Position numbers and translations under genes: made by a program
Shown here: piece by piece, positions 3,924 to 47,512 of the stretch
How the letters are laid out: each line of letters opens with the position of its first letter
How positions within the stretch are numbered: position 1 is the stretch's first letter
NCBI GenBank assembly: GCA_002304445.1
Contig: NEVA01000002.1
Coordinates: forward strand, 248,001-312,000
DNA length: 64,000 bases
Direction: 5' to 3'
Origin: Opitutia bacterium Tous-C4FEB
GTDB taxonomy: Bacteria; Verrucomicrobiota; Verrucomicrobiia; Opitutales; Opitutaceae
The notes under the pieces: generated by a model
What the model was told of the DNA's origin: nothing
Databases searched by the model: none
What the model saw: only the letters and a program-made list of their open reading frames with translations

Positions 3924-5389
3924 AGAGTGTGCTCCTCGCTTTCTTATCGTTCTTGGCGCTGGGCCCTTCTGCATTCGCGGCGGACCGCCCGAATATCCTG
4001 ATGATCGCCGTGGACGATCTCAACGACTGGGTCGGCTACCTCGGCGGCCATCCCGACGTGAAAACGCCCAACCTTGACCGCTTGGCCCAGCGCGGTCTCG
4101 TCTTTGCCAATGCGCATTGCCCGGCGCCCGTCTGCAATCCCTCCCGAGCGGCGCTGATGACCGGACGCCTGCCGGCCCACACCGGCATCTACGGCAACGA
4201 GGTGCGCTGGCACGAGGCGCTGCCCGGTGTGATCTCGATTCCGCAGCACTTCAAAGCGCAGGGCTACCACGTTGCCGGGGGCGGCAAAATCAACCACCAC
4301 ACGCCGGGCTACAACCGCGCGAGTGATTGGCACATGTATTTCGACCAAGTTTTCGACAGCCACTACCAGGTCGGACTCGCCCGCGGCGATGACATGTCGA
4401 AGTTCGCATGGCCCCCGGGTTTTCCGCTGAGCCAAATCCCGGCGGTGAAGGCGTTCTCGCGCCCACCGGCAAATCCAAACGAATTCGACTGGGGCCCGTG
4501 GGACGCAACCGACGAGGCGATGGGCGACGGCCAGCTCGTCGAGTGGGCGGTGAATTTTCTCGCGGCCCCGCCGTCACAGCCGTTCTTTTTAGCTCCGGGC
4601 ATTTATCGGCCGCACCTGCCGTTTTACGCGCCGCGAAAGTATTTCGAGATGTATCCGCTGGATCGCATCACGCTGCCGGTGGTGAAAGCCGATGACCTCG
4701 ACGATGTGCCCGCCGGTGGCCAACGCATTGCGGCGGATCGGCGTGGTGACCTCGAACTTGTGCTGAAGGAGGGCAAATATCGCGAGCTGTTGCAGGCGTA
4801 TCTCGCAAACATCACCTACTGCGACGCGCTTGTCGGCCGCCTGCTCGACGCGCTCGAGGCCGGCCCGGCGGCGAACAACACCATCATCGTCCTTTGGTCA
4901 GACCACGGCTGGCATTTCGGCGAAAAAAATCACCTGCATAAATTTACCCTTTGGGAGCGATCCACCCGCGTGCCGTTTCTCATCGTCGCGCCCGGCGTGA
5001 CGCGGGCGCAAACCCGCACCGCGCGGCCCGTGGGGTTGGTCGATCTGTTTCCCACGCTCAATGAACTGTGCGGCTTGCCGACGGTGGCGGAACTGGACGG
5101 CCAGAGCCTCGTGCCGCTCCTGCGGGATCCTCAGCGCGCGTGGGATCGGCCCGCGCTAACGACGCACGGCCGGGGCAACCATGCCTTGCGCAGCGAACGC
5201 TGGCGCTACATCCGCTACGCCGATGGCGGTGAGGAACTTTACGATCACGCCAACGACCCGCACGAGTGGACTAACCTCGCGGGCAAGCCCGAGTTCGCCG
5301 CAGTGAAGGCCGACCTCGCGAAATCGCTCCCGAAAACGGACGCCGCTCCGGCGCTCTCCAACCGGGGGAAAAAGAAGAAGGAGAAATGA
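3920..5389 (+). CDS. S1-family sulfatase, iduronate-2-sulfatase-like
   Basis: A 489-residue sulfatase with a signal peptide (AFAA, ~residue 21). Metal-binding Asp residues are in AVDDLNDW (~30-37). The formylglycine motif is a canonical CNPSR at about 72-76, within CPAPVCNPSRAALMTGR. The block FLAPGIYRPHLPFYAPRKYF and the DHGWHFGEKNHLHKFTLWE segment are typical of the iduronate-2-sulfatase group (S1_7). The C-terminus is a lysine-rich tail (GKKKKEK) whose AAGAAGAAGGAG codons sit just before the ATG of the next gene. It begins inside the stop of the preceding sulfatase (ATGA) and overlaps the esterase the same way. It is probably periplasmic or secreted and acts on a sulfated sugar ring; bacterial S1_7 members are not restricted to iduronate. 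Confidence 0.9.
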   Translation: MKSVLLAFLSFLALGPSAFAADRPNILMIAVDDLNDWVGYLGGHPDVKTPNLDRLAQRGLVFANAHCPAPVCNPSRAALMTGRLPAHTGIYGNEVRWHEALPGVISIPQHFKAQGYHVAGGGKINHHTPGYNRASDWHMYFDQVFDSHYQVGLARGDDMSKFAWPPGFPLSQIPAVKAFSRPPANPNEFDWGPWDATDEAMGDGQLVEWAVNFLAAPPSQPFFLAPGIYRPHLPFYAPRKYFEMYPLDRITLPVVKADDLDDVPAGGQRIAADRRGDLELVLKEGKYRELLQAYLANITYCDALVGRLLDALEAGPAANNTIIVLWSDHGWHFGEKNHLHKFTLWERSTRVPFLIVAPGVTRAQTRTARPVGLVDLFPTLNELCGLPTVAELDGQSLVPLLRDPQRAWDRPALTTHGRGNHALRSERWRYIRYADGGEELYDHANDPHEWTNLAGKPEFAAVKADLAKSLPKTDAAPALSNRGKKKKEK

Positions 5390-13298: not shown

Positions 13299-14468
13299 AT
13301 GCACCTCATCCGTTCGCTCCTCCTGATCCTCGTCGCCGTCTCCGCACTCTGCGCCGCGCCGCTGTTGGAATTCTCCGACGTCTTCCCCGCCAACTCCAAC
13401 GGCATCGTGCGCCACCGCATCCCCGGTGTCGTCGTCACGCCCAAGGGCACCGTGCTCGCCTACTGCGAAGCGCGTAAAAACAGCAGTTCCGACTGGGGCG
13501 AGATCGAGGTCCACCTGCGCCGCTCCACCGATGGAGGAAAGACGTGGGACGCTCCCTGCCAGATCGCCCACAGCGCCGCGCGCCTCGAGGGCAACCCGCG
13601 CAAGAAGCAGGGCGGCGACCGCGAGCAGACCGTCAACAACCCGGTCGCCATCGTCGACCGCACGACCGGCGCGATCGAGTTCCTATACTGCGTGAACTAC
13701 GCGCGCGCTTTCTCGATGCGCAGCACCGACGACGGCCTCACCTGGAGCGCCCCCGTCGACATCACCGCGACGTTCGAGCCGTTTCGCGCCAAGTATGATT
13801 GGAAGGTCATCGCCACTGGTCCGGGCCACGGCGTCCAGCTTAAGAGCGGTCGCCTCGTTGTCCCCATCTGGCTCGCCTACGGTGCCACCGGAGACCACAA
13901 ACCCTCCGCCTCTGGGACGATTTACAGTGATGACCACGGCAAGACGTGGCTCGCGGGCGACATTGCTTTCCCGAATGCCGGCGAATTCGGCGATCCTAAC
14001 GAAACCATGATCACCACGCTCGCCGACGGCCGCGTGATGCTCGTGGCGCGCAACGTCTCCAAGGCCAACCGCAAGCTCGTCAGCATCAGTGCTGACGGCG
14101 CAACCGGCTGGAGCACGCCGAAGTTCCACGACCAACTCTGGGAGCCGATCTGCATGGCTAGCATCGTCGCGCACCCGGCGCAGCTCGGCACGCAGATCTA
14201 TTCCGCGCCCCACACCCTCGGGCGCGACGCCGCCGGCAAGGAGATCCCCGCCGGCCGGGGCAAACGCGAAAATCTCTCGATCAAGCTCAGCCGTGACGAC
14301 GGCAAGACGTGGTCCGTGAACAAGACCCTCGACGCCGGCCCCAGCGCCTACTCCGACCTCGCGGTGTTGCCCGACGGCACCGTCCTTTGTCTCTATGAAA
14401 AAGGCACCGACATCGTGGCGGCGCGTTTCAATCTCGACTGGCTCAACGGTGCGCCCGCCACGCGCTGA
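13299..14468 (+). CDS. Exo-alpha-sialidase, GH33-like (copy 2)
   Basis: A 389-residue secreted sialidase with signal peptide (LLLILVAVSALCAA). It has RHRIPGVVV in place of YRIPG, and Asp boxes STDGGKTW, STDDGLTW, SDDHGKTW and SRDDGKTW. It is a paralogue of the enzyme at 10564-11769, aligning along its whole length; copy 1 has an extra stretch around [11 protein letters not shown]. Duplicated sialidases often divide labour between linkages or between cell-bound and released forms; sequence does not decide this. It is the last secreted enzyme of the operon, with a 103-bp gap before the lyase gene. Confidence 0.88.
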   Translation: MHLIRSLLLILVAVSALCAAPLLEFSDVFPANSNGIVRHRIPGVVVTPKGTVLAYCEARKNSSSDWGEIEVHLRRSTDGGKTWDAPCQIAHSAARLEGNPRKKQGGDREQTVNNPVAIVDRTTGAIEFLYCVNYARAFSMRSTDDGLTWSAPVDITATFEPFRAKYDWKVIATGPGHGVQLKSGRLVVPIWLAYGATGDHKPSASGTIYSDDHGKTWLAGDIAFPNAGEFGDPNETMITTLADGRVMLVARNVSKANRKLVSISADGATGWSTPKFHDQLWEPICMASIVAHPAQLGTQIYSAPHTLGRDAAGKEIPAGRGKRENLSIKLSRDDGKTWSVNKTLDAGPSAYSDLAVLPDGTVLCLYEKGTDIVAARFNLDWLNGAPATR

Positions 14469-14493
14469 CGCCGAGTTCCCTAAGGTATCTGAA

Positions 14494-14506
14494 CGACGAA
14501 TCGTCG
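14494..14506. promoter_or_regulatory. Candidate operator palindrome upstream of nanA
   Basis: Perfect inverted repeat CGACGA-A-TCGTCG in the 103-bp gap between the second sialidase and N-acetylneuraminate lyase genes, 66 bp before the lyase ATG. GntR and LacI regulators bind palindromes of about this size, and a GntR/LacI-type regulator is encoded next door. No second copy was found by eye, so the assignment is speculative. Confidence 0.3.
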
Positions 14507-14571
14507 ATCCTATCACCGCCGCGTTTTCCGACATTTCTAACTAGACCATTTAACTGAGTTTCTCATTCGCC

Positions 14572-15498
14572 ATGCAAAATCGATTCCGCGGCCTCGTCGC
14601 CGCACCCTTCACGCCCTTCAACGCTGATCGCTCGATCAATCTCGACGTCATCCCCGGCTACGCCCGGTTCCTGAAGGAGAACGGCGTCGGCGCCGCCTTC
14701 GTCTGCGGCACGACGGGCGAGGGGCTTTCCCTGACGTTGGAAGAACGTTTCGCCGTTTCGGCGAAATGGGTGGAGTCAACGGGTGCGACTCTGCCGGTGA
14801 TCGTCCACGTCGGGCACACCTGCCTTGAGGACGCCCGTAAGCTCTCGGCGCACGCGGCCCAGATTGGCGCGGCGGCGATCTCGGCTTTGGCCCCGATGTT
14901 TTTTAAGCCGCGTACGGTGGACGAACTCGTGGATTGGTGCGAAGCGGTGGCTTCGGCGGCTCCGGCCCTCCCGTTTTATTACTACAACATTCCTTCGATG
15001 ACCGGCGTCTCGTTTCCCGTCGCCGACTTCCTCGCTCGCGCCGCCGATCGCATCCCCTCCCTTGTCGGCGTCAAATACACGCACGAAGATCTGCCCGACT
15101 ACCGTGCCTGTGTGGCCGCCGCCGATGGCCGCTACGATATCCTGTTCGGCCGCGATGAACTCTTGCTCGAAGGCTGGAAAGCGGGTGCCCGCGGGGCGGT
15201 CGGCAGCACTTACAATTACGCGGCGCCGCTTTATCTGCGGCTCCTGGCGGCGCACCAAAATGGCGACGAGGCGACCGCCCGGAAGTTGCAAGATACCGCG
15301 ATCAAGATGATCGCGATCTGCAACGGCATCGGCGTCACCCACCTCGCCGCGTCGAAAGCTCTGATGGCGATGCTCGGGGTGGATTGCGGCCCCGTCCGCT
15401 TGCCGCTGGTGCAGCCCAGCGCGACGCAGCTCACGACCCTTCGCGCGAAGTTGACCGAGATCGGCTTTTTTGAATTCGCCTGCCGCCCTGTTGCGTAA
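14572..15498 (+). CDS. nanA: N-acetylneuraminate lyase
   Basis: A 308-residue class I aldolase of the DapA/NanA family. It cleaves N-acetylneuraminate to N-acetylmannosamine and pyruvate in the cytoplasm. Seen: CGTTGEG (~45-51), which binds the pyruvate carboxylate; YYYNIPSMTGV (~136-146) with the catalytic Tyr; and GVKYTHEDL with the Schiff-base Lys at ~168. The YYYNIP-TGV block matches neuraminate lyases (including the vertebrate NPL type) and is unlike the dihydrodipicolinate synthase at 28514-29401. No export signal. Its location after sialidases and an SSS transporter supports the assignment. The lyase is separated from the upstream gene by a gap with a palindrome, so it may have its own promoter. 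Confidence 0.92.
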   Translation: MQNRFRGLVAAPFTPFNADRSINLDVIPGYARFLKENGVGAAFVCGTTGEGLSLTLEERFAVSAKWVESTGATLPVIVHVGHTCLEDARKLSAHAAQIGAAAISALAPMFFKPRTVDELVDWCEAVASAAPALPFYYYNIPSMTGVSFPVADFLARAADRIPSLVGVKYTHEDLPDYRACVAAADGRYDILFGRDELLLEGWKAGARGAVGSTYNYAAPLYLRLLAAHQNGDEATARKLQDTAIKMIAICNGIGVTHLAASKALMAMLGVDCGPVRLPLVQPSATQLTTLRAKLTEIGFFEFACRPVA

Positions 15499-15513
15499 CT
15501 CCGGAAGTCCGGC

Positions 15514-15589
15514 GTAGGGCAGGGTCTCTGACCCGCCCTTTTTCGCGCAGTTCGTGCGCGTTCAGGGCGGGTCGGAGAGCTCGCCCTAC
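15514..15589. repeat. Large intergenic palindrome between convergent nanA and regulator genes
   Basis: Two 25-bp arms (15514-15538 and 15565-15589), each beginning or ending in GTAGGGC/GCCCTAC, pair with only a few mismatches. The loop holds a second small stem, CGCGCA/TGCGCG. The right arm contains the stop codon of the regulator gene on the minus strand. The form fits a bidirectional terminator, but size and GTAGGG...CCCTAC ends also resemble REP-type elements; a half-matching piece lies near 56096-56120. Confidence 0.7.
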
Positions 15590-16683
15590 TGCCGAGGCGC
15601 CGTCGAGCCGCCGGCGGCAAATTTCGGCAGAAGTGGGGCGGGTGAACGCAGGGAGGTGCTGCGGTTGAGCATCTGCAAAAGTGAGCCGACGATTTTCTTC
15701 GCGAACGAATGCGGATCGACCCGGTAGCGCGCGGGTTCGGGGACCAGCGACGCCAGAAACGGATCGTCGTCGCGGGAGATGAGAGAGATGTCCTGCGGTA
15801 CCCGCAGCCCGCGCTGGGCGAGCACACTGGCGGTCGAGAGGTAAGCGTAGGAATTGCTCACCACGAGGGCGGTGGGCGGATTCTTTTGGTCAAAGAGAGT
15901 ACGCAGGGCGCGCGCGACGGAATCGACGTCGTCGCGGTGATAAGCGATCACGGCGGTGGCGTCGCGGTGCGGCGACCGACTCACGCCTTCGACAAATCCG
16001 CGCTCGCTGTCCACATCGCCGGCCCGCCGGGATTCGCGGTTGAGCAATGCGAGGTGGCGGTGTCCGGCGCGCAGGAGGATCCCGGCGGCGTGCCGGCAAA
16101 TCGCGCGGTAATCCAAATCATAGTGGGGTAGCGCGATGTCCGGATAAGTGGAACCGGCGACGAGACACGGGGTGTTTCGCCGGGCAAACCAGCGTTGCAT
16201 CGCTTCCGAGGAAAGCGTGACGACCCAAGCGCTGTGCGCGTGCTGGCCGATCAGGCGGTCCAGTGCGCGCGCCGGATTGGTCTGGTAGCATTGACGGCCC
16301 TCGTGGATGCGAAGCCGATAGCCTTCTTCGATGAGCAAATCTTTGAGCTCGTCGATCCATAGTGCGATGAGGGGGCGGAGGTGCCCGATGGGCTCGGGGA
16401 TGAGCACCCCGACGGTTCTCGTCTGATGTTCGACGATGGCCGGTTTGGCTGTGCCGACCACACGATTACCCAGTCCTCGGACTGGTTCGATCAGACCATC
16501 GGCTTTGAGTTGTTCGAGGGCGGCGCGAACGGTGTTGCGGCTCGCCTGCAGGGTGCGGCTGAGGACCCGCTCGCTGGGCAACCATCCGCGCCACGTGCCT
16601 TTCTTCAACTCGGCGCGCAGATGTACGGCGAGTTGGCTGGCGACGGTGCGGTGGGGAATCAGCGTCATGGGCGTTACGAGCAC
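15586..16683 (-). CDS. GntR/LacI-type transcriptional regulator of the sialic acid locus
   Basis: A 365-residue protein with an N-terminal GntR winged helix (TVASQLAVHLRAELKKGTW, then LPSERVLSRTLQASRNTVRAALEQLKADG, about residues 15-65) and a C-terminal LacI-like periplasmic-binding-fold ligand domain (starting TRTVGVLIPEPIGHLRP; later YSTASVLAQRGLRVPQDISLISRDDDP-like elements). This AraR-type architecture gives sugar-responsive control. An internal Met five codons in (16668) is an alternative start. It lies 26 bp downstream of the NanM-like gene on the same strand, so the two are probably cotranscribed, and convergent to the catabolic operon. The effector is probably sialic acid or a breakdown product (inference). 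Confidence 0.85.
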   Translation of the reverse strand: MLVTPMTLIPHRTVASQLAVHLRAELKKGTWRGWLPSERVLSRTLQASRNTVRAALEQLKADGLIEPVRGLGNRVVGTAKPAIVEHQTRTVGVLIPEPIGHLRPLIALWIDELKDLLIEEGYRLRIHEGRQCYQTNPARALDRLIGQHAHSAWVVTLSSEAMQRWFARRNTPCLVAGSTYPDIALPHYDLDYRAICRHAAGILLRAGHRHLALLNRESRRAGDVDSERGFVEGVSRSPHRDATAVIAYHRDDVDSVARALRTLFDQKNPPTALVVSNSYAYLSTASVLAQRGLRVPQDISLISRDDDPFLASLVPEPARYRVDPHSFAKKIVGSLLQMLNRSTSLRSPAPLLPKFAAGGSTAPRQ

Positions 16684-16709
16684 GCACGACGGAGCCGGCG
16701 ACGGCGAAA

Positions 16710-17792
16710 TTATTTTTTGGCCGGATGCTCGGCGACAGGGGCGGACCAGACGCGGGCCGAGCGCACGCCGGGGCGCGCTTCACCGCCCGGCACCACGATC
16801 TGTCCGCGCCACGTGGTCAGGGTTGTGGTGACGAGAGAGAACGGCACCTCTCCGGCACGACTCCAGGTGTCGTCGGCAACACGGTAGGCCAGGGTGTCGC
16901 GGGGAAATCCCCGATGTTCGGTGGGGGCGAGCGCGACTTGGGCACCGTCATCACCGCCAAAAATCAAGATGCGCCCGTCGATCACGGGAGCTGGGGAGGG
17001 CGCGGCGACGGCTACGCGAGGCAGATCGGCGATACGTTTCCAGCCCGCTCCCGGGGTGTAGCGATACGCGTCGCGTAGCCACTCGCGCGCCGGCTTGTTG
17101 GTGCCGTCCGCGATGAGTCGCGCGCCGCTGAAGAGAAAAAAGGCTCCGTCGTGAGCGGCGGCGGTGGCGAGGAAACGTTCCGCACCGGGCCAAGTCGGGA
17201 GCTCGCGCCAGCCGCTCGCGAGCTGATCGAGGTCGAGGGCGAAGAAAGCGTTTTGGGCCGCGGCGGCGTCGGGCCGGTCAAGCCCGCCCGCGACATAGAG
17301 GGTGCGTCCGACGAGGGCGCCGGCCGCCATCGCCAGCGGTTTGGGCAGATGCGGCCACGCGGTGAAGGTGACCGTTTCCCGCTCCCAGCGGGCGAGCCAA
17401 ACTTCGTTGAAATTGCGGGTAGCATCACCCCCGCCGATCAAGACGAAGCCCTCGGGCGTGTTCACCGACACACCGTAGCCGCCCGCGTGCGGCAAACGTC
17501 CGGCGTTGCGCCAAGTGGTCGCGGCGGGCTCGAGCACAAAGAGGCGGTCATACCATATTTTTGCGCCGCCCTCCCACGGGCGTTTGTCGGGGAAATTAGC
17601 CCCGCCGGCTACGATCAGCGCGTCCCCGCTGACGCCGGCGTAGCTGCCGGCAAAGCCCTCGCTGTCAGGCAAGGCCGGGAGTTCGTTCCAACGGAGCGGT
17701 GGGGAAGTGGTCATGTCGGGGGCGGATTCGGCGCTGGCGGCGGCGGCCAGATAAAACGCAACGATGCAAAAGGCGACGGACGGACAACGCAT
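16710..17792 (-). CDS. nanM: Kelch-repeat cyclically permuted mutarotase, NanM-like (N-acetylneuraminate epimerase)
   Basis: A 360-residue periplasmic protein. The signal peptide is MRCPSVAFCIVAFYLAAAASA; this start (17792) was preferred to a farther upstream one because it gives a clean signal. Kelch-type repeats are visible: GDALIVAGGANFP, EGFVLIGGGDATR, GRTLYVAGGLDRP, GRILIFGGDDGA and GQIVVPGGEARP. NanM-type mutarotases convert alpha-sialic acid released by sialidases to the beta anomer and often sit with sialidase, SSS transporter and lyase genes, exactly the company seen here. The catalytic residues were not checked individually. It is followed by the regulator gene. Confidence 0.85.
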   Translation of the reverse strand: MRCPSVAFCIVAFYLAAAASAESAPDMTTSPPLRWNELPALPDSEGFAGSYAGVSGDALIVAGGANFPDKRPWEGGAKIWYDRLFVLEPAATTWRNAGRLPHAGGYGVSVNTPEGFVLIGGGDATRNFNEVWLARWERETVTFTAWPHLPKPLAMAAGALVGRTLYVAGGLDRPDAAAAQNAFFALDLDQLASGWRELPTWPGAERFLATAAAHDGAFFLFSGARLIADGTNKPAREWLRDAYRYTPGAGWKRIADLPRVAVAAPSPAPVIDGRILIFGGDDGAQVALAPTEHRGFPRDTLAYRVADDTWSRAGEVPFSLVTTTLTTWRGQIVVPGGEARPGVRSARVWSAPVAEHPAKK

Positions 17793-17862
17793 GGGGGTGA
17801 TTGGCTTGTTTCTTGGTTGGTTGAACCGGTTGGGGCAAGTGGGGGGCAGTGGATCTATTATT

Positions 17863-17895
17863 GAACCGCCAACAAAGTCGATTGTTCGGCGGTTC
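17863..17895. promoter_or_regulatory. Hairpin in the divergent nanM / FmdB-like intergenic region
   Basis: GAACCGCC (17863-17870) pairs with GGCGGTTC (17888-17895), and AACAA pairs with TTGTT just inside, leaving a six-base loop and one bulged C. It lies 71 bp upstream of nanM and 52 bp upstream of the FmdB-like gene. It could be a regulator-binding dyad or an RNA structure in either leader; no poly-T run follows directly, so a terminator is less likely. Confidence 0.45.
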
Positions 17896-17946
17896 CCTTG
17901 CGGCACCGCTTGCGCAATTCGCCGATTCGTTTTTAACCGACCGGGC

Positions 17947-18504
17947 ATGCCGATCTACGAGTATTACTGTCCGCAGAACCACACGGTTTATCAGTTCTAC
18001 GCCAAGACGCTGGCGCAGGGAAAAACGGCGCCGAAGTGTCCGGATAACCCGCGATTCAAGCTGCAAAAGATGATGTCGACGTTTGCCGTGACGAGCGGCG
18101 GTCGGAGCGATGAAGCCCTGCCGCCCGCGGCTCCGGGCGGTGCCGAAACCGGACCGGAAGATGCACGGATGGAGGCGGCGATGGGCGCGATGGAGAAGGA
18201 ATTTTCGAACGTGGATGAGAACGACCCTCGGGCGATGGGCCGGATGATGCGGCGAATGGCGGAAATGACCGGAGAGAAAATCGACGGCGAGATGGAGGAA
18301 GTGGTGCGGAAGCTGGAGGAAGGCGCCGATCCGGAGGCGTTGGAGGAACAGATGGGTGGCGGACCGGAGGGCGAGGCGGACATGGATGGGAAGGAGCCGG
18401 GGCTGGCCGGGATGAAACCCAAGGAGCAGCGCGAGGCGCGGGCTCGGCTCAAGGCGAGGCGCGGGCCGGCGCTGCGTGATCCCAAGCTTTACGATTACGA
18501 GTAA
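17947..18504 (+). CDS. FmdB-like protein with degenerate zinc ribbon
   Basis: A 185-residue cytoplasmic protein starting MPIYEYYC, the FmdB/CxxC_CxxC_SSSS signature. Each zinc knuckle has kept only its first Cys (C8-P-Q-N and C31-P-D-N), so zinc binding is probably lost or altered. Compare the intact paralogue at 34985-35227, which has CQKC and CPKC. The rest is Met/Glu/Gly-rich and probably helical (MEAAMGAMEKEF, RMMRRMAEMTGEKIDGEMEEVVRKLEEG). Function unknown. It is divergent from nanM and lies 52 bp upstream of the inositol monophosphatase gene. Confidence 0.7.
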   Translation: MPIYEYYCPQNHTVYQFYAKTLAQGKTAPKCPDNPRFKLQKMMSTFAVTSGGRSDEALPPAAPGGAETGPEDARMEAAMGAMEKEFSNVDENDPRAMGRMMRRMAEMTGEKIDGEMEEVVRKLEEGADPEALEEQMGGGPEGEADMDGKEPGLAGMKPKEQREARARLKARRGPALRDPKLYDYE

Positions 18505-18556
18505 GGCGGGTGCGAAAGGATTTGGCGGGCGTCGGCGGCGGATATTTGCTGGTCGG

Positions 18557-19351
18557 ATGGCGAACCACGAACTCCTGAAACGTATCGAAGCAGCCAAGCG
18601 TGCGGTGCTGGCGCAAACCGAGCTGTTGCACCGTGAGTTTGGGCGCGCGGAGAGCCGCTGGAAAAGCGACGGCACCCGGGTGACGGCGGTCGACGTGGCG
18701 ATCTCGGAGAACATTTTTCGCGAGCTGGCGGCGCAATTTTCGGGCGATCAATTTTTCAGCGAGGAATTGGCCGAGACGGACGCGCCGATTCCGGTGACGG
18801 CGGAGTTTTCCTGGGTGCTCGATCCGATCGATGGAACCAACAACTTCGCGCTAGGCATCCCGCATTGCGCGATCTCGCTCGGCTTGTGTGTGCGGGGCGA
18901 GCCGGTTTACGGCGTCGTCTATGATTTGAGCCGGCGGGTGTTGATGCACGGTGGGCCGGGTTTCGGCATGCACGACGGTGAGCGGGCGGTCACGGTGTTG
19001 AACGTGACGCCGCACGCGGAGAGCATCGTCGGATTCCACCGGCCCGGTGATCCGGCGCGGATGCCGGCGGCCAACGCGATTTTGGGGCAGTTCAAGATTC
19101 GCGGATTGGGGAGCGCTACGTTGCACCTGGCCTACGTGGCGGCGGGGCTGTTCGACGGCTGCGTAGATTTCAACGTGAAGATATGGGACCTCGCGGCGGC
19201 AATTCCGCTCGTGCGTGCGGCCGGTGGCGAGGTGGCCTTTATCAACGGCGAGCAACTGCCGATGAAATCGTTTAACCTTAAGATGGGCAAAATCGTCTAC
19301 GTCGCCGGCGGGCCGATCGTGGCGGCGCGGCTGCGGGAATTGGTCGGGTAA
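18557..19351 (+). CDS. Inositol monophosphatase family protein
   Basis: A 264-residue Mg2+-dependent, Li+-sensitive phosphatase fold (PF00459). Metal-binding motifs: SEELAE (~73-78), DPIDGTNNFA (~94-103) and WDLAAAIPLVRAAGG near residue 212. The family dephosphorylates inositol monophosphate, histidinol phosphate or 3'-phosphoadenosine 5'-phosphate; the last substrate (CysQ-like) would suit a sulfate-handling organism, but the sequence does not settle it. The start at ATG 18557 gives the usual family length; upstream in-frame codons overlap the FmdB-like gene. Confidence 0.85.
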   Translation: MANHELLKRIEAAKRAVLAQTELLHREFGRAESRWKSDGTRVTAVDVAISENIFRELAAQFSGDQFFSEELAETDAPIPVTAEFSWVLDPIDGTNNFALGIPHCAISLGLCVRGEPVYGVVYDLSRRVLMHGGPGFGMHDGERAVTVLNVTPHAESIVGFHRPGDPARMPAANAILGQFKIRGLGSATLHLAYVAAGLFDGCVDFNVKIWDLAAAIPLVRAAGGEVAFINGEQLPMKSFNLKMGKIVYVAGGPIVAARLRELVG

Positions 19352-39877: not shown

Positions 39878-40528
39878 ATGCAACCCATCTCCCCGGCTAC
39901 GCTCCTCGACGCGCTCAACTGGCGCTATGCCACCAAAAAGTTTGATCCTGCCCGCAAGCTCTCGGCCGAGACGTGGGCGACGCTCGAACAGGCGCTGATC
40001 CTTTCGCCGTCCTCGTTTGGGCTGCAGCCGTGGAAGTTTCTGGTGATCACCGACCCGGCGGTGAAGGCGCGATTGGTGCCGATTTCGTGGGGCCAGACCC
40101 AGCCGGCGGATTGTTCGCACATGCTTGTTTTGGCCGTGAAGCAGGGTCTCGGGGCCGATCACGTGGAAAAGTTTCTGGACCGTCAGGTCGAAGTGCGCGG
40201 CGGCTCGAAGGAGAAACTGAGCGGTTACCGCGACATGATGCTGGGCAGCCTCGCGGGCGCCGCGAAGGCCGGGACGCTCGATGCTTGGCAGGCCAACCAA
40301 ATCTATATCGCGCTCGGTCAGTTTATGGCAGCGGCGGCGATGATCGGCGTCGATACGTGCCCGATGGAGGGCATCGACCGCGCGAAGTATGACGAAGTGC
40401 TTGGCCTCGACGGCACGGATTTCGCAACGGTGGTGGCGTGCCCGGTCGGCTACCGCGCGGTAGACGATAAATACGCCACGGCTCCAAAAGTGCGCTTCAA
40501 AGCGGCGGACGTAGTGGAGCACATTTGA
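39878..40528 (+). CDS. NAD(P)H-dependent nitroreductase-family oxidoreductase
   Basis: A 216-residue FMN-binding protein (PF00881). FMN contacts are in RYATKKFDP and LSPSSFGLQPWKFLV, with GVDTCPMEGID and the C-terminal VRFKAADVV. It is of the NfsB/YdgI-like group reducing quinones or nitroaromatics. Its last 186 bp (from 40343) recur at 41466-41651 in the same frame, flanking the toxin-antitoxin pair, so the 3' end of this gene may have been supplied by an inserted element. Confidence 0.88.
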   Translation: MQPISPATLLDALNWRYATKKFDPARKLSAETWATLEQALILSPSSFGLQPWKFLVITDPAVKARLVPISWGQTQPADCSHMLVLAVKQGLGADHVEKFLDRQVEVRGGSKEKLSGYRDMMLGSLAGAAKAGTLDAWQANQIYIALGQFMAAAAMIGVDTCPMEGIDRAKYDEVLGLDGTDFATVVACPVGYRAVDDKYATAPKVRFKAADVVEHI

Positions 40529-40577
40529 ATCCACGCAGGGAGTTGCCGGTTAGTCTGCATTCGGCAGTGAGTTAACC

Positions 40578-40604
40578 GCTAATCTTCGCTAATTCCCGCT
40601 AATC
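40578..40604. repeat. Three CGCTAAT repeats with 10-bp period
   Basis: The motif CGCTAAT (first copy CCGCTAAT) occurs three times at exact 10-bp spacing within the gap after the nitroreductase gene. The period equals about one DNA turn. Function unknown; possibly a fragment of a dispersed repeat. The remainder of the 40529-40818 gap shows no gene. Confidence 0.6.
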
Positions 40605-40818
40605 CATGAGGAAGAATTTTTCCCGAAGTGAATTTTGATTCACCGATCAGGTGAACCGACGGTCGGGTTGGATTCTCTTCAAAACTCTTTCATCAGCGTC
40701 GATTGGCGGAAGTTAACGGTTCCTCTTTCTGCGGCTCTAAGGATTAGAGACTGGTTCTTCCCGGCGATCCGGCCAGGAGCGGCGTTACTCGACGCGTGAT
40801 TCCGCTCAAAACCTAGGG

Positions 40819-41070
40819 TCACGCCCATTCGAGTCGCACGATGCGAACTTCCTTCGCCGCGTGATCAACCCACCACGTCACGATCAAGTCGTCCTGCAGT
40901 TTCACCTGATACTCGCGGCCCGTCAGTCCCGATTCACTATAGTCACCCGGTTCGAACGGATGCCGTGCTAGCCCGTCAAAAATCTGCAGGAGCTTTTCGC
41001 GCTCCCGGCCGCTCTCGCTCGTGAAGGCATGGATCGCCTCTGCGTCGAGGGCAAAGTCGTAGGGCTCCAT
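40819..41070 (-). CDS. RelE/ParE-family toxin of a type II toxin-antitoxin pair
   Basis: An 83-residue protein with the compact RelE/ParE layout: helical N-terminus (ALDAEAIHAFTSESGREREKLLQIFDGLARHP) followed by a beta-sheet half (REYQVKLQDDLIVTWWVDHAAKEVRIVRLEW). Family members cleave mRNA on ribosomes or inhibit gyrase; which applies is unclear. The gene lies 3 bp after the antitoxin gene on the same strand, the usual antitoxin-first order. It sits between the two copies of the nitroreductase 3' end. Confidence 0.72.
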   Translation of the reverse strand: MEPYDFALDAEAIHAFTSESGREREKLLQIFDGLARHPFEPGDYSESGLTGREYQVKLQDDLIVTWWVDHAAKEVRIVRLEWA

Positions 41071-41073
41071 CGT

Positions 41074-41286
41074 TCACACACCCTCGGCCTTGAGGGATTC
41101 GTGCAGCCGCACAAGTTGGGCGCGTGATACCTTTTCACCGGCCTCCATCCGCGCCGCTGCGGCATCGAGTGATTGCTTGTTGGATACCGAATCACAGCGG
41201 GACAGATGGCGGAGATACGCTGAGAGCACGACCCGCTCTGAAGGCGGCAACGCCTTAACCTGAGATTGGATTTCCGCCAGCGACAT
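41074..41286 (-). CDS. Antitoxin of the adjacent RelE/ParE-like toxin
   Basis: A 70-residue, largely helical and charged protein starting MSLAEIQSQVKALPPSERVV. Small size, position directly upstream of the toxin gene and 3-bp spacing support an antitoxin role. The ATG at 41286 gives a compact domain; the frame stays open upstream but that stretch is Arg/Pro-rich and unlikely to be coding. Confidence 0.65.
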   Translation of the reverse strand: MSLAEIQSQVKALPPSERVVLSAYLRHLSRCDSVSNKQSLDAAAARMEAGEKVSRAQLVRLHESLKAEGV

Positions 41287-41465
41287 GCCGGCAGCTTGGC
41301 CAAATCCGCCGCGCCCGCAAATCAATTTCCGGCATCGTAGCCCAAGCCGACACCCTTCCTCTACGGCCTCTGTAATTTTGCCGACCTTAGCCTCTCGCAC
41401 CGCTTCGAACCCATGAAGCGCTGCCCTTTTCGGGGATCGGGCCGGGAGGGTTTTCTGGGGCGTTA

Positions 41466-41651
41466 ATCGGCGTCGATACTTGCCCGATGGAGGGCATCGA
41501 CCGCGCGAAGTATGACGAAGTGCTTGGCCTCGACGGCACGGATTTCGCAACGGTGGTGGCGTGCCCGGCAGGTTATCGCGCGGCGGATGACAAATACGCC
41601 TCGGCTCCGAAGGTACGCTTCAAAGCGGCGGACGTCGTGGAGCATATCTGA
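41466..41651 (+). pseudogene. Duplicated 3' fragment of the nitroreductase gene
   Basis: Encodes IGVDTCPMEGIDRAKYDEVL and onward to KAADVVEHI plus stop, the same last 61 codons as the intact gene ending at 40528. By eye: one mismatch in the first 15 bp, then 88 identical bases, then 15 mismatches in the last 83, nearly all in third codon positions (three amino-acid changes, V-A, V-A and T-S). No start region, so not a functional gene. Confidence 0.9.
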
Positions 41652-42062
41652 GCCTCAGTGCGGAGGGGCAGGGACCGCTCTCCGAGCGGTCCGGGCCTGT
41701 GCAACGCGGAGTAGGTTCTTGCCGCCGGCGTTCATTTGCTACGCATCGCTGGCCGCGTGCTCGGCGCTGCCAGGGTCCGTTGAGACGGGGATCAAGGTCG
41801 ATATTTTCGACGGAAAACTCACCAAGCGCTGCGCAGGCCCCGAGGTGTCGCCGACCCCTCAAGACGGTGGCTGGCCGATCAGCTCATTGTGGGCACCTTG
41901 GTGGCGGTGAGTCACCATATCGGGTAACTCCTCCGCGGCCTTCGACCCGATGTCGAAAAATCCCTCGGCCGGCTAAAACATTAACAGTCAAAACCCGACC
42001 CTGTTTAAGACCCGATTTCAAAAACTTGAGCGCTTTTGAGGCTGGATTTCGGAAGTGATTGT
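41652..42062. other. Non-coding gap with a small palindrome upstream of the helicase gene
   Basis: No credible gene. It holds the 9-bp inverted repeat described separately and ends in a stretch with lower GC (AAAACATTAACAGTCAAAAC) before the helicase start, where a promoter could lie. Confidence 0.5.
41672..41692. repeat. REP-like palindrome
   Basis: GGACCGCTC-TCC-GAGCGGTCC, a perfect 9-bp inverted repeat with 3-base loop, 20 bp after the nitroreductase fragment. Its CTCTCCGAG core resembles the GTCTCTGAC/GTCGGAGAGC arms of the element at 15514-15589. Confidence 0.65.
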
Positions 42063-45000
42063 ATGATCATCTCAGGCCACTTCCTTGTGACCGAACAAAC
42101 GCTCGCAGATCATATTGTCGAGGTCTTGATGGTCGCAACAGAGCCGCTTAAGGCTAAAGACATAGCCAGAATATTGTCCGAGGGAAGCGGGGCAACTTTA
42201 GACACCACGGCAGTGAACTCGATTCTGTATGGGGTGTTGGCACCAAAAGTTATCAAAAACGAGGAACACAGGTGGGTAATCAGGAAAGCCATCGACGATA
42301 AAATAGTGGCGCCAGCCGCTCCGCTCGTTCGCTCCGGCCCGGAATCGCTGTTTGAAATCTTCGAAAAAATTGAACCTCTTTCGCCGGTGGAAAGAATAGT
42401 GGCGGCGAGTCCAACAGCTGATACCAGTCTCCAGCGGGAAGCGACTAGGACGAAAGCTGAGCAGCCGTCGTCTCCCACAAAGATGCGGCTCAAGACGGTG
42501 TATGAGTTCCTAAAGGAACTCCATGACCTGAGGAATCCCGTGCCGCGCTCACTTGATGGTGAACAGGTGTTTCAGCTCCGAGATTGGCCGAAGCACGAGA
42601 GCATCCAAGTCCGCGAGGGAGACTTTTCCGAAACTACCGAATCTGCCGCGGAAGCGTTACAATACCCCATCCGCGTTAAGCGCGCCAAGCTCACTGCGTG
42701 CCCGAAACCGCCGAGTGAAATTGCCGAATGGCTGCTCGTGGGCTGGGAGGATTGCTCCCGCCGAGTTGAGACAGTTGAAGCTAAGAATCTGGCTGGGGCT
42801 AACGGAAAGACGATCACTGAGAAATTTGGCAGCTCGGTGGTCCGCACCGCAGCCTTGGCTCGTTGGGTAGCCGAGCGGCAAGCATGGGCACTGGTCGAAA
42901 AACCTGCTGCCTATGCACGGGCAGTATTCGAGGAGCTCTATTCAACATGGTCACGTCTTCAAAAGGAAGGAGGACGGTTCGAGTTGGCACTCGCGGATGG
43001 ATTTGCCGACGTGCCCAGCGAGTCAATCTGCTACCCGATTCTGTCACGTCGTGTAGAACTGGAATTTGACGCAAGCGCACCAGAGTTTCTCGTCAGTCTC
43101 GCGGGTGATCAGTCGGAATTAGCGACTGCGCTTCTGCGTCAAGTGCCCGAAGTCGAACCGAAGGGAATCGCGCGACTCAAAAAGAGACTGGAGGACCTGC
43201 CCGTCGATCCACTGGGGGGACACAGTACGACGCAGTTCCTCCGGGACGCCGCTCAAAGTCTATGGCGCAACGGAGAATTTGTAAGCACTCAGAGCCAACG
43301 TCCGAGCAAAACGGTTCCGGTGATTTGGCGAGGCCCGGTGCTATACGTCAGGAAGAAAGTTGCCGGTTTAAGCAGTGCCCTCGATGGAATCGTCGAGGAC
43401 TTAATGTCAGCGGCTTCGATCCCAGCTGTCGGGCTAGCTAGAATCGTTGGATTCGATGAAATCCAAAGTGACTCCGGCAAGTCTACGCCGGGCGGCACCC
43501 CGCCATCGCTGGGAGCCGAGCCTGTTGATACCCTGTTTAGCAAGCCGGCGAATGCTGAACAATTTAGGATCGCCGCCCAATTGGCAGCAAACGGAGCGGT
43601 TCTAGTGCAAGGACCGCCCGGGACCGGCAAAACTCACACGATAGCAAATCTTTTGGGCGACTTGCTCGCGCAGGGAAAAACCGTTCTCGTCACCGCTCAT
43701 ACCACGAAAGCGTTGCGCGTCCTGCGGGAAAAGGTGGCGCCCCCCCTCCAGCCCTTATGTCTAAGCGTGTTGGACAGCGAGGCGGAAAGCAAAAGCCAGC
43801 TTTCGAAATCAGCACAGGAGATCGTTGCCAAACTCTCAACTTGCGACGCCGCTCAGCTCCGCCGAGAGGTGACCATCCTTCGTCAGAAACGCGATGATTT
43901 ACGGGCAAAGATCGAGTCACTTCGACTTCGTCTCCGATCAGTAAGAGAAAGTGAAATCGCGGAGATTGTGATAAACGGAGAGGCGCTACGTCCGATAGAC
44001 GCGGCAAAGGAGATTAAAGCAGGTGTTGCGGCGCACGATTGGATTCCAGGCCCCGTGACCAGGAACTCCTTACCTCTCAACGAAAGCGAAATCTGCGAAT
44101 TATACACCTCAAACACAGCCTTGGCTTTGAATGACGAGGCGCTCCTCGGTCGTTCACGCCCCCGATCTTCACGCCTGATACAGCCGGCAGACTTTGCAAA
44201 GCTGGCGGAAACGCGAAGATCGGCATCAACTAAGTCTGCAAAACGCCGGCCAGAGTATTGGAGGGCTCGGAACACGGGAAACCAGACTCCAGAAAAGTTG
44301 ACGAAACTTCATGAGGCCCTGCGACAAGCAGGTAAGTTTCTGTCAGAAGCCAATGATTGGGAGCGTGAAATGCTCTATTGCGGCTGGGCTGGTGGGCCGC
44401 TTTCCAGTGCATGGCTTGAGATTGTGACGGCAATCGACTCGCTAAATCTGGAGTCCGGGGAGGTCCAGCGGCTCTCAATGACTTTGCTGCCGGAATTGCC
44501 CAAAAACATTCCTCCCGAAGTCGCATCGACCCACTTTAGTGAGATACTTGGGCACTTGGAGAACGGTGGAAGTCTTGGTTTTATTTCGAAGCTACTTAAT
44601 GCCCAATGGCACACGACAATCGAAGCTTCAAAGATCGAGGGGCGAGTGCCGAAGACCGCCGCTGATTTCAGAAGTCTAAAGAGAGTGGCCGACTTCGAAA
44701 AGGGCCGACAGCTGTTTCGTGCCCGGTGGGAGAAATCTGTCGAGAAATACGCCGGCCCTGCATTTGACAGTCTTGGCAACGCGCCCGAGCGCGCCGCTAA
44801 GATCCACTGCGAAAAAATTATCTACTGCGTCAACTGGCGCGAGAGTTTCTGGCAGCCATTCGTCCAAGATCTAGAGGAGAGCGGCTTCCTTTGGAATGAT
44901 TGGCTACAGTCTCACCGAGTCGAACCGGGCGACTATGCTGAACTCAAGAGAGCTTGCGCAGCTTGCTCGACTGCTCTCGTCGAGATGGTGGAGGCAGAGG

Positions 45001-46997
45001 TCGCGCGACTCGTAGAGGAAGAGTTGCAGGGCCGAGCGAATCAGCAGGCGAATTACCTCAAGGAGTTCCAATCTACCTTATTGGCCGCGCAGTTGCTTGC
45101 AGCCCATTACGCATGGAACTCTGCCGCATATACTGACGCCTTTGAAGAGGCCGTGCGTCTGGAGCAGCTTGAAGCAACTTATTCAAACAGACGTAGTCGT
45201 CTACAGACGCTTGGCGCAGCTGCAGAAAATTGGGCATCGTCTATCTCCGCTCGAATCGGTGTGCACACAAATGGAGTTCCTCCCGGACCTGTTGCCTCCG
45301 CTTGGCGGTGGCGGTTACTTATCCAAGAGCTAGAAGCTCGAGCCGCACAAACCGCCTCTCACATTCAGGAGACACTTCGTTCTATGGAAGACGAAGTTCA
45401 TGTTACTACCGCTGAGATAATTGAGAAGAGCACATGGGCAGCGCAGCGCGAGCGCACTGGCTTGCGCGAGCAACAAGCACTGCAAGGCTACGTTCAGATA
45501 ATCAACAAGGTCACCAAGACGGGCCGCGGCGTAAGGGACGCTGAGCTCCTGCGCGAAGCACGGAATTGTCTAAACAATGCACGTGGCGCAGTTCCGGTCT
45601 GGATCATGCCATTGCACCGAGTATACGAGAGCTTCGATCCCCGAACGACGAAGTTCGACGTGGTAATCGTAGATGAAGCTAGCCAAAGCGATGTCACAGC
45701 CTTGGCAGCACTCTACCTAGGCAAAGAACTCATCGTCGTCGGTGATAAAGAGCAAGTGACGCCCGATGCCGTTGGACAAGATGTCGGCGAGGTGAGCCGC
45801 CTGATCGCTTCCCATCTCCAAGGTGTTCCAAACAGTATTCTCTACGACGGCCAAACCTCGATCTACGATCTAGCTGAAACTGCTTTCGGTAGCGTAGTCG
45901 CCCTGAGGGAGCACTTCCGTTGCGTCCCCGAAATCATCCAGTTTTCCAACGATCTTTCATACAATGGATCGATTCTCCCTTTGCGTGAGCCCTCATCTGC
46001 AAGGCTGCGCCCAGCCCTAGTTTCCTACCGAGTCTCAGGATTTCGAGTCGGCGATGGAAAAATCAACGAGGCAGAGGCGGAGGCGATTGTGTCGCTGATT
46101 ATGGCGTGCCTCGAGCACCCTTCGTATAGAGAGAACGAAAATGGGGCACCAATGAGCTTTGGCGTTATTTCGCTTCTCGGTGGGGAACAAGCTGAGCTGA
46201 TCGACTTCCGCCTCCGGCAATCTCTCTCGCCAGTTGTCTATGCGAGACATCAAATTCTCTGTGGCACGGCCGCGAATCTTCAAGGTGATGAACGCGACGT
46301 GGTTTTTCTGTCCCTCGTCGATGGTCCACCTGAATCAGGTCTTCTCCCAACCCGCAGCGCGGGCCCACGGGATCTTTACAAGAAACGATACAACGTCGCA
46401 GCGAGTCGTGCGCGTAACCAATTGTGGGTAGTGCACTCACTAGATCCTGAGCTGCACCTAAACAATGGGGACTTGCGGAAGCGCTTGATCGATCACGCCC
46501 GTGACCCGTTGCAGCTGATGAATCGAATGGAGCAACTTTCCAAACGAACCGAATCTGAGTTTGAGAAGCAGGTATTACAGAGACTCATACGTGCCGGCTA
46601 CAGGACGGCGACTCAATGGAGAGTCGGATCATTCCGAATCGACATCGTTGTCCAAGGCGCCAACGGGAAGAAATTGGCCATAGAATGCGATGGCGAACGG
46701 TGGCACACTGCGGAGCAGCTGCAAAAAGACCTCGAGCGTCAGGCCATTCTTGAGCGCCTAGGTTGGGTCTTCCGTCGAATCCGAGGTAGCCTCTTCTTTC
46801 GGGATGCCGATGCCGCAATGATTCCCGTTTTTGAGAAACTCTCTGCGATGGAAATCGACCCAATCGCGGACAGTAATTATACCGGAACGCTCAATGAGAG
46901 CGAACTCATGAACGAACTGCGAGCGCGCGCTGAGGGAATTCTCGCTTCACGGGCAGCAGGATTTTGGTCGAATGCCGAGGCGAACAACGGCGAATAG
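42063..46997 (+). CDS. Large SF1 helicase with C-terminal MTES_1575/Vsr-like nuclease domain
   Basis: A 1644-residue protein. Order of parts: a winged-helix-like N-terminus (~8-78, LADHIVEVLMVATEPLKAKDIA); a long region of unknown fold; Walker A GPPGTGKTHT (~517); a coiled-coil-rich insertion (LRQKRDDLRAKIESLRLRLR, from ~610) of several hundred residues; Walker B VIVDEASQSD (~1203); GDKEQVTPDAVGQ, LREHFRCVPEII, GTAANLQGDERDVVFLSL and YNVAASRARNQLW as DNA2/NAM7-type SF1 motifs; and a nuclease domain (~1497-1600) with SEFEKQVLQ, FRIDIVV, LAIECDGERWH and ILERLGWVFRRIRG. This last pattern is the REase_MTES_1575 type. The ATG at 42063 was chosen; a TTG at 42036 and GTG at 42090 are alternatives. 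Codon use looks less GC-rich than neighbours, suggesting transfer. Likely nucleic-acid-targeting defence protein (inference). Confidence 0.85.
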   Translation: MIISGHFLVTEQTLADHIVEVLMVATEPLKAKDIARILSEGSGATLDTTAVNSILYGVLAPKVIKNEEHRWVIRKAIDDKIVAPAAPLVRSGPESLFEIFEKIEPLSPVERIVAASPTADTSLQREATRTKAEQPSSPTKMRLKTVYEFLKELHDLRNPVPRSLDGEQVFQLRDWPKHESIQVREGDFSETTESAAEALQYPIRVKRAKLTACPKPPSEIAEWLLVGWEDCSRRVETVEAKNLAGANGKTITEKFGSSVVRTAALARWVAERQAWALVEKPAAYARAVFEELYSTWSRLQKEGGRFELALADGFADVPSESICYPILSRRVELEFDASAPEFLVSLAGDQSELATALLRQVPEVEPKGIARLKKRLEDLPVDPLGGHSTTQFLRDAAQSLWRNGEFVSTQSQRPSKTVPVIWRGPVLYVRKKVAGLSSALDGIVEDLMSAASIPAVGLARIVGFDEIQSDSGKSTPGGTPPSLGAEPVDTLFSKPANAEQFRIAAQLAANGAVLVQGPPGTGKTHTIANLLGDLLAQGKTVLVTAHTTKALRVLREKVAPPLQPLCLSVLDSEAESKSQLSKSAQEIVAKLSTCDAAQLRREVTILRQKRDDLRAKIESLRLRLRSVRESEIAEIVINGEALRPIDAAKEIKAGVAAHDWIPGPVTRNSLPLNESEICELYTSNTALALNDEALLGRSRPRSSRLIQPADFAKLAETRRSASTKSAKRRPEYWRARNTGNQTPEKLTKLHEALRQAGKFLSEANDWEREMLYCGWAGGPLSSAWLEIVTAIDSLNLESGEVQRLSMTLLPELPKNIPPEVASTHFSEILGHLENGGSLGFISKLLNAQWHTTIEASKIEGRVPKTAADFRSLKRVADFEKGRQLFRARWEKSVEKYAGPAFDSLGNAPERAAKIHCEKIIYCVNWRESFWQPFVQDLEESGFLWNDWLQSHRVEPGDYAELKRACAACSTALVEMVEAEVARLVEEELQGRANQQANYLKEFQSTLLAAQLLAAHYAWNSAAYTDAFEEAVRLEQLEATYSNRRSRLQTLGAAAENWASSISARIGVHTNGVPPGPVASAWRWRLLIQELEARAAQTASHIQETLRSMEDEVHVTTAEIIEKSTWAAQRERTGLREQQALQGYVQIINKVTKTGRGVRDAELLREARNCLNNARGAVPVWIMPLHRVYESFDPRTTKFDVVIVDEASQSDVTALAALYLGKELIVVGDKEQVTPDAVGQDVGEVSRLIASHLQGVPNSILYDGQTSIYDLAETAFGSVVALREHFRCVPEIIQFSNDLSYNGSILPLREPSSARLRPALVSYRVSGFRVGDGKINEAEAEAIVSLIMACLEHPSYRENENGAPMSFGVISLLGGEQAELIDFRLRQSLSPVVYARHQILCGTAANLQGDERDVVFLSLVDGPPESGLLPTRSAGPRDLYKKRYNVAASRARNQLWVVHSLDPELHLNNGDLRKRLIDHARDPLQLMNRMEQLSKRTESEFEKQVLQRLIRAGYRTATQWRVGSFRIDIVVQGANGKKLAIECDGERWHTAEQLQKDLERQAILERLGWVFRRIRGSLFFRDADAAMIPVFEKLSAMEIDPIADSNYTGTLNESELMNELRARAEGILASRAAGFWSNAEANNGE

Positions 46998-47059: not shown

Positions 47060-47287
47060 TCACGCCGCGTGGGTGCGGTAGAGACGGCGTTCACGGTCAG
47101 CGGCGAAAGCGAGGCAGGCCTTCAAATCCTCGGCGGTAAGATCGGGAAAGTCGGCGAGGATTTCCTGTTCGGTCATGCCGCCGGCGAGATAGTCGAGGAC
47201 ATCGTAAACCGTGATACGAAGCCCTCGGATGCACGGTTTGCCGCCGCGCTTGTCGGCTTCGATCGTGATGATGTGCTCGTAGTTCAT
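47060..47287 (-). CDS. DUF433 antitoxin-like protein (orphan)
   Basis: A 75-residue protein with the DUF433 pattern: HIITIEADKRGGKPCIRGLRITVYDVLDYLAGGMTEQ then ILADFPDLTAEDLKACLAFAADRE. DUF433 proteins usually act as antitoxins beside a PIN-like DUF5615 toxin, which is not seen on either side here. The start MNYEHI is preferred to an upstream Met at 47359. Confidence 0.85.
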   Translation of the reverse strand: MNYEHIITIEADKRGGKPCIRGLRITVYDVLDYLAGGMTEQEILADFPDLTAEDLKACLAFAADRERRLYRTHAA

Positions 47288-47512
47288 GAGAGGGAGAGTG
47301 CTCGTCGGCGGGAGGATAGGCAAGTCCGAGCTCGTGGGGAGGCCTCGCGCCGCAATCACTTCAGCGTTCAGTTTTGAACGTTGAGCGTGTTTACCGGGCT
47401 GAAAGGAAACTGGATTTTCAGGTGGATCAGATCCTGGAGGGGTGTGCAGAGAAAACGTCGGCCGCTAAACACTCACCGGAGGACGTGGGGCGCTGCGCAC
47501 GGTACGAGGAGC

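Follow-up and report, generated by a model that had tools for sequence, protein, structure and literature searches.

A toxin-antitoxin pair behind a nitroreductase gene in an Opitutaceae genome, probably added without an integrase by recombination that replaced and displaced the gene's 3′ end

How small toxin-antitoxin (TA) modules that carry neither a transposase nor an integrase move between chromosomes is an open question. The minimal mobile elements of Neisseria are cassettes exchanged without an integrase between conserved genes, through homologous flanks and after DNA uptake. Other elements, such as e14 at icd and the CIMEs, carry a replacement gene end. Restriction-modification systems have been described as inserting with 'long and variable' target duplications 'in the order of 100 bp' (PMC3874152, PMC3031569), and both papers cite an insertion of this kind, with a long target duplication, in Helicobacter pylori (Nobusato et al. 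2000); in the passages concerned, there and in PMC2654758, the long target duplications are those of restriction-modification systems. In Microcystis aeruginosa, a TA pair behind the orthocaspase gene MaOC1 is flanked by identical 152-bp repeats (PMC7935541). Among the open-licence papers searched, none was found that describes TA cassettes in which gene ends are replaced.

Here we analysed a TA pair located behind a nitroreductase gene in a 64,000-nucleotide stretch of DNA (the window, meaning that whole stretch) from a genome whose named relatives are Opitutaceae. The 3′ end of the gene occurs twice, as the end of the intact gene (copy A) and again beyond the TA pair (copy B). The features of the locus are as follows.

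39878-40528, plus strand: intact nitroreductase gene, 216 aa (PF00881, E = 3.2e-23; ORF list).
40343-40528, plus strand: copy A, the last 186 bp of the nitroreductase gene.
40358-40445, plus strand: 88 bp of copy A that align to copy B (41481-41568) with 0 mismatches in the codon table, the probable crossover region.
40446-40528, plus strand: tail of copy A, which differs from copy B at 15 positions and is taken to be the allele brought in with the TA pair.
About 40559-40744, no strand assigned: dispersed repeat of approximate extent, with copies elsewhere in the same genome, in the sister genome G010 and in other family members.
40819-41070, minus strand: putative toxin, 83 aa, predicted RelE/ParE fold (pLDDT 92.4; the top four PDB matches are RelE toxins, TMq 0.71-0.80).
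41286-41074, minus strand: putative antitoxin, 70 aa, 3 bp upstream of the toxin, with only weak matches, below the Pfam cut-off.
41459-41466, no strand assigned: right end of the insert, where the second gene-end copy starts abruptly inside coding sequence (repeat search and alignment).
41466-41651, plus strand: copy B, the apparent displaced native 3′ end of the nitroreductase gene, open to the stop codon (repeat search, codon table).
41652-41857, plus strand: apparent native downstream flank, found directly after the single gene in the sister genomes G007 and G010.

An earlier note on this DNA had described 186-bp in-frame repeats with 88 identical bases followed by 15 mismatches in 83, most of them synonymous, and the repeat search and the codon table bore this out. 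The search returned one repeat family of this kind, pairing 40336-40528 with 41459-41651 (193 nt, 91% identity). Copies A and B differ at 16 of 186 bases: one in the first 15 bp (ACG/ACT), none in the next 88 and 15 in the last 83. Three codons alter the residue (V/A, V/A and T/S) and the rest of the changes are silent. Both copies are in the nitroreductase reading frame, copy B showing no frame damage and lacking the remaining, 5′ part of the gene. The contrast between 0/88 and 15/83 is not random (Fisher p = 1e-5). Since the tail is also more variable among sister genomes (A versus G007, 6/88 and 19/83; A versus G010, 4/88 and 16/83), the sharp boundary should not be over-read: given the sister rates, the probability that none of the 15 differences falls in the core is 0.004 to 0.035, and the contrast is partly ordinary codon conservation.

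The 930 bp separating the copies comprise the dispersed repeat and the antitoxin and toxin genes, which form a convergent pair. As the same note had stated, a TA pair and no integrase-like gene lie between the repeats; the ORF list holds neither an integrase nor any other recombinase frame in the insert. The toxin is predicted to have a RelE/ParE fold, its model matching RelE toxins in the PDB (3g5o, TMq 0.79-0.80). At the thresholds used, its sequence fell into no family of Pfam, PADLOC or PHROGs; up to E 0.1 there was no Pfam match either, and the one NCBIfam match was weak, unrelated and below the cut-off. The putative toxin would be neutralised by its partner antitoxin, and the pair may have an addictive effect. 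Close relatives of the toxin occur in other genera (84% identity in G135, 80% in G099, 75% in G156 and 70% in G143), while the other genus mates hold distant matches only, at most 41% identical. Around the closest TA orthologues in G099, G156 and G143, gene-end repeats are absent. The dispersed repeat has imperfect inverted ends (by eye); at least five further copies are present in G010 and more in several other genera of the family, and its boundary at 40559 recurs in several matches.

Twelve genus mates were searched. Ten have the nitroreductase gene and eight were read at its 3′ end; G006 and G011 carry the gene and are not among these eight junctions, and G001 and G004 gave no gene match. 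Each of the eight sisters read has a single nitroreductase gene, with the TA pair missing at the junction. The gene of G007 and G010 then runs into the flank that follows copy B in the window (85% and 83% identity over about 400 bp), and in G003, G008, G002, G005, G012 and G009 it is directly followed by the counterpart of the window gene ending at 48453. The earlier note had pointed to sister genomes free of the TA pair as the way to tell which 3′ end is native, and they gave an answer. Because the flank adjoins the single gene in G007 and G010 and none of the eight sisters has a TA pair there, this comparison indicates that copy B and 41652-41857 are the native end and flank, and that the insert consists of 40529-41458 plus the tail of copy A. 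We read the joint at 41459-41466 as an illegitimate one. Further downstream, the window encodes a 1645-aa helicase with an MTES_1575 nuclease domain (42060-46997, plus strand), which resembles anti-phage ProA (211 bits, cut-off 1500) and PADLOC PDC-S37 (E 8e-63), along with a DUF433 gene (47060-47359, minus strand); this position in G007 and G010 is occupied by a large gene, TonB-dependent receptor-like by eye.

The tails of the two copies carried further information. Seven of their 15 differences also split G007 from G010 in the same two states, G010 agreeing with A at five of these sites and G007 at two. In simulations under a null favouring variable sites, the mean was 2.5 and seven or more were reached in 0.18% of runs (P = 0.0018). 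Because these seven differences recur between G007 and G010, the tails of A and B appear to be two older alleles. Mutation after a simple duplication, considered as the source of the tail differences, is disfavoured by the simulation and does not readily explain the seven sites. The proposal that the incoming DNA had brought its own version of the 3′ end is thereby supported, with the tail of copy A as the other allele and copy B as the native one; the mqo locus of G135 described below supports it too. Copies A and B share the C-terminal ending KAADVVEHI, found in none of the eight sisters, which implies either a donor closer than any genome compared or an exchange that included the last codons too. 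No donor locus was found among the genomes compared.

The closest relative of the window pair was found in G135, where a TA segment 82% identical to that of the window sits behind mqo (assigned by PF06039 in the G132 orthologue), between two copies of a stretch of about 200 bp that includes the mqo end plus downstream sequence. The same pair beside the 3′ end of another gene is what the earlier note had suggested looking for. G132 represents the empty site for the window-type pair and is otherwise collinear with G135 (95.4% over 2.1 kb). Relative to the mqo end of G132, identity in G135 is 95.9% for the displaced copy, 87.6% for the gene-proximal copy and 94.0% for the upstream coding sequence. 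Because the displaced copy is closer to the G132 end than the gene-proximal copy is, the gene-proximal end is probably foreign; the gene's own end in G135 would be the incoming one, with the former end pushed downstream. The orthologous toxin of G135 (L096, G135:C351, 534-782) contains an in-frame TAG and this copy looks inactivated.

Different genomes carry different numbers of cassettes behind mqo. In G129, from the same genus as G135, mqo is followed by the native downstream gene, and in G127, as well as in G134 as far as the contig reaches, by an MNT/HEPN pair (PF08780 and Polbeta in the G135 copy). In G132 a ParE-like/Unstab_antitox pair precedes MNT/HEPN, and in G135 the order is the window-type pair, ParE-like/Unstab_antitox and MNT/HEPN. 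Behind each cassette stands a copy of the mqo end; these copies begin at different points. The last copy in G132 is a truncated native mqo end adjoining the native flank, and this most distal copy matches the native end and flank of G129. Array growth on the gene side would be the simplest order, with losses possible. Two kinds of mqo C-terminus (LHHPSST- and RPATPAR) alternate between gene and displaced copies (L096, L178, L179 and L183, genus g42), and at the two-C-terminus loci of this genus the protein's own C-terminus appears to have been swapped. The G135 assembly also contains a second mqo end (L181, G135:C234), which is separated from the native flank by another insert, about 2.4 kb long, that contains two frames of 170 and 205 aa.

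Other genes were found with duplicated ends. The dgt-like gene of G107 has two TA pairs among three gene-end copies, the last of which is frameshifted; the flank past the third copy follows a single gene in the sister G099, the one of five sisters compared that shares it, and the copies do not reveal which tail is foreign. At upp (G254) the 3′ end is likewise repeated around TA genes, the native-flank rule not being confirmed there. Repeated 3′ ends around TA genes also occur at a ThiF-family gene (G239, L295), a methylmalonyl-CoA-mutase-family gene (G082, on a 1.5-Mb contig, L329), a UvrD-like helicase gene (G088, L332), with an additional BrnT gene, and an amino-acid permease gene (G096, L370). 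At an aldehyde dehydrogenase (L399) and a histidine kinase (L360) it is the 5′ end that is duplicated around TA genes, and strict 3′-end targeting was dropped on this account. The endpoints of the duplicated stretches vary from event to event. In L149 (G129:C732), a toxin of the window family lies between two fragments of one gene end (648-800 and 1460-1612; ...LFVRTGTKLFALGK), the intact gene being absent from the stretch examined.

Direct repeats enclosed 8 of 46 loci of the window toxin family and 38 were not flanked. Four of the eight repeats were gene 3′ ends (L007, L096, L139 and L173, the window's included) and L149 was the gene-end fragment pair; the others were a dispersed tandem repeat (L138), what looks like paralogous coding sequence (L171) and L169. 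Twelve further toxin loci had no enclosing repeat; since L281 among them coincides with L176, 11 of these are new and the distinct loci total 57. Five of 30 MNT/HEPN loci were enclosed, three of them in mqo arrays, one by the ThiF gene end (L295) and one by a dispersed repeat (L313). For Unstab_antitox, a first set gave 4 of 30 (L329, the CoA-mutase; L332, UvrD; L325; L338). In a second set, direct repeats of any kind enclosed 15 of 60 loci compared with 11 of 240 random centres (p = 9e-6). The centres, which are not independent, were placed six to a stretch in 40 random 20-kb stretches, mostly from genomes outside the TA set. The 40 stretches were hand-picked from 60 randomly drawn places, and the 20 omitted include all six drawn in G000. 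The 15 comprise the permease 3′ end (L370), three that look like 3′-end fragments (L372, L386, L403), the two 5′ ends (L399, L360) and nine that were dispersed, array-like or not assigned (L354, L368, L376, L380, L382, L383, L388, L395, L400). A first scan of the 800 kb of control sequence, with some pairs judged by eye only, revealed no clear gene 3′ end repeated around small genes. One control stretch (L190, G161:C1:1818842-1838841) has an apparent PIN toxin and antitoxin (by eye) between dispersed repeats at 1546-4457, and another (L225, G015:C1:3312020-3332019) has at 14266-19191 small frames separated by an array of repeats about 110 bp long, which by eye resembles an integron; array-like repeats are also present at L388 (G214).

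We consider it probable that the TA module was added behind the nitroreductase gene by an integrase-free insertion-duplication, through recombination with TA-bearing DNA of a relative. The incoming DNA would have come from a relative in which the TA module stood behind the same gene. Crossing over in the 3′ part of the gene (about 40358-40445) would have given the resident gene the donor's last 83 bp together with the TA pair, the other side of the donor segment being joined without long homology to the resident gene end at 41459-41466, and the native end with its flank would have been left behind as copy B. Two forms of entry are conceivable for this DNA: a recircularised fragment, in a Campbell-type insertion-duplication, or a linear molecule with a single homologous anchor. 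The nitroreductase gene stays intact, and loss of the cassette would be opposed by the TA pair. The same process, repeated on the gene side, could produce the mqo and dgt arrays. Donor, molecular route, addictive effect and age of the event are all inferred. One homologous crossover plus one illegitimate or ring-closing joint is favoured because it meets all the facts: an intact gene, a foreign gene-proximal tail, a displaced native end, variable joints, no integrase, and several genes and TA families.

Other explanations were weighed against this insertion-duplication. A transposition-like event could have copied about 190 bp of target, with later exchange or mutation altering the tails; the same outline is described for restriction-modification systems in the passages cited above (PMC3874152, PMC3031569), and the excess of repeats around Unstab_antitox loci over random centres speaks for it. 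In the window and in G135, however, the copies are apparently different older alleles and the gene's own end is the odd one, and because of this a target-copying insertion would need a second event at both loci, which makes it rather unlikely. A tandem duplication of the nitroreductase gene whose second copy subsequently lost its 5′ part, the alternative raised in the earlier note, would account for a second end that is in frame and readable. It was rejected as highly improbable, the sisters being single-copy: the two complete tandem genes that would have favoured it are absent from all eight read at the junction, the window genome has no other nitroreductase match of this kind, the tails appear to be older alleles, and the TA pair and a dispersed repeat lie between the copies.

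Site-specific recombination was considered in two forms. The locus could be the remnant of an integrase-driven element that had entered at the gene's 3′ end with a replacement end and was later reduced to its TA pair; replacing the gene's own end and displacing the native one is what such elements do, and the mqo cassette order suggests entry at the gene side. Against this, the insert has no integrase, the assembly has only two PF00589 matches, both XerC/XerD-like, with one resolvase-type recombinase elsewhere (contig C20), several different genes were used and the duplicated stretches start at different points, so that we regard this origin as very unlikely. Five Y1_Tnp genes lie on other contigs of the assembly. 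Nor did the identical part fare well as the crossover core of an integrating element, the role the earlier note had given it: there is no integrase candidate beyond the XerC/D-like genes and the resolvase-type recombinase, endpoints vary and different genes serve, and for these reasons the sequence comparisons made here favour recombination in ordinary homology over an att site. The 88-bp core need not be a fixed att site, its contrast with the tail being partly codon conservation. An integron gene cassette, with the gene end as recombination site, would be in keeping with the array-like repeats of G015 (L225) and G214 (L388), and TA cassette arrays do exist in integrons. The repeats at the nitroreductase, mqo, dgt-like and upp genes, however, are coding 3′ ends and not attC-like (by eye), and integron-integrase models matched the two XerC/D-like genes only, below the cut-off; this explanation was rejected as barely conceivable.

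The insertion-duplication proposed for the window may have a wider counterpart. Tentatively, the ends of core genes in this family could act as homology-based docking sites for TA cassettes, amounting to an integron-like capture without an integrase that is kept by addiction. If true, the cassettes would carry a gene-end copy, replace and displace the resident end, and stack in ordered arrays, the most recent arrival lying beside the gene. The filled and empty sites with replaced ends, which involve several genes and unrelated TA families, offer a concrete route for TA movement that is testable and datable: the displaced native end would mark each event and the arrays would record the order.

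Compared with the minimal mobile elements of Neisseria, the insertion in the window is one-sided and left a displaced gene-end copy. The likeness to e14 and the CIMEs lies in the replaced gene end, the displaced native end and the largely silent differences, and a replacement gene end like that of integrase-driven elements is indicated by the alleles in the window and in G135; unlike in those elements, no integrase or fixed core was found, many genes serve as targets and the cassettes are TA cassettes of about 0.5-2 kb. The MaOC1 locus (PMC7935541) is similar in that a gene is immediately followed by a RelE/ParE-like TA pair flanked by two long direct repeats, but its repeats start 14 bp after the stop codon, contain inverted repeats and duplicate no gene end. 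The insertions of restriction-modification systems in H. pylori, as presented in the passages cited above, resemble our loci in four respects: an addiction module is involved, the direct repeats around it are variable and long, in the order of 100 bp, no transposase is linked to it, and relatives have a single copy. The repeats measure 186-193 bp here, 57-204 bp in the mqo arrays and 88-117 bp at the dgt-like gene, and single copies were found in all eight sisters, for dgt in G099, for mqo in G129 and, for the site of the window-type pair, in G132. The two copies do not both appear to derive from the resident target, being two older alleles in the window and including a probably foreign gene-proximal end in G135. 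In contrast to what those passages describe for H. pylori, our loci belong to a different phylum and involve type II and MNT/HEPN TA modules; a gene end is part of the repeat, another allele has taken the place of the gene's own end, and the cassettes can form arrays.
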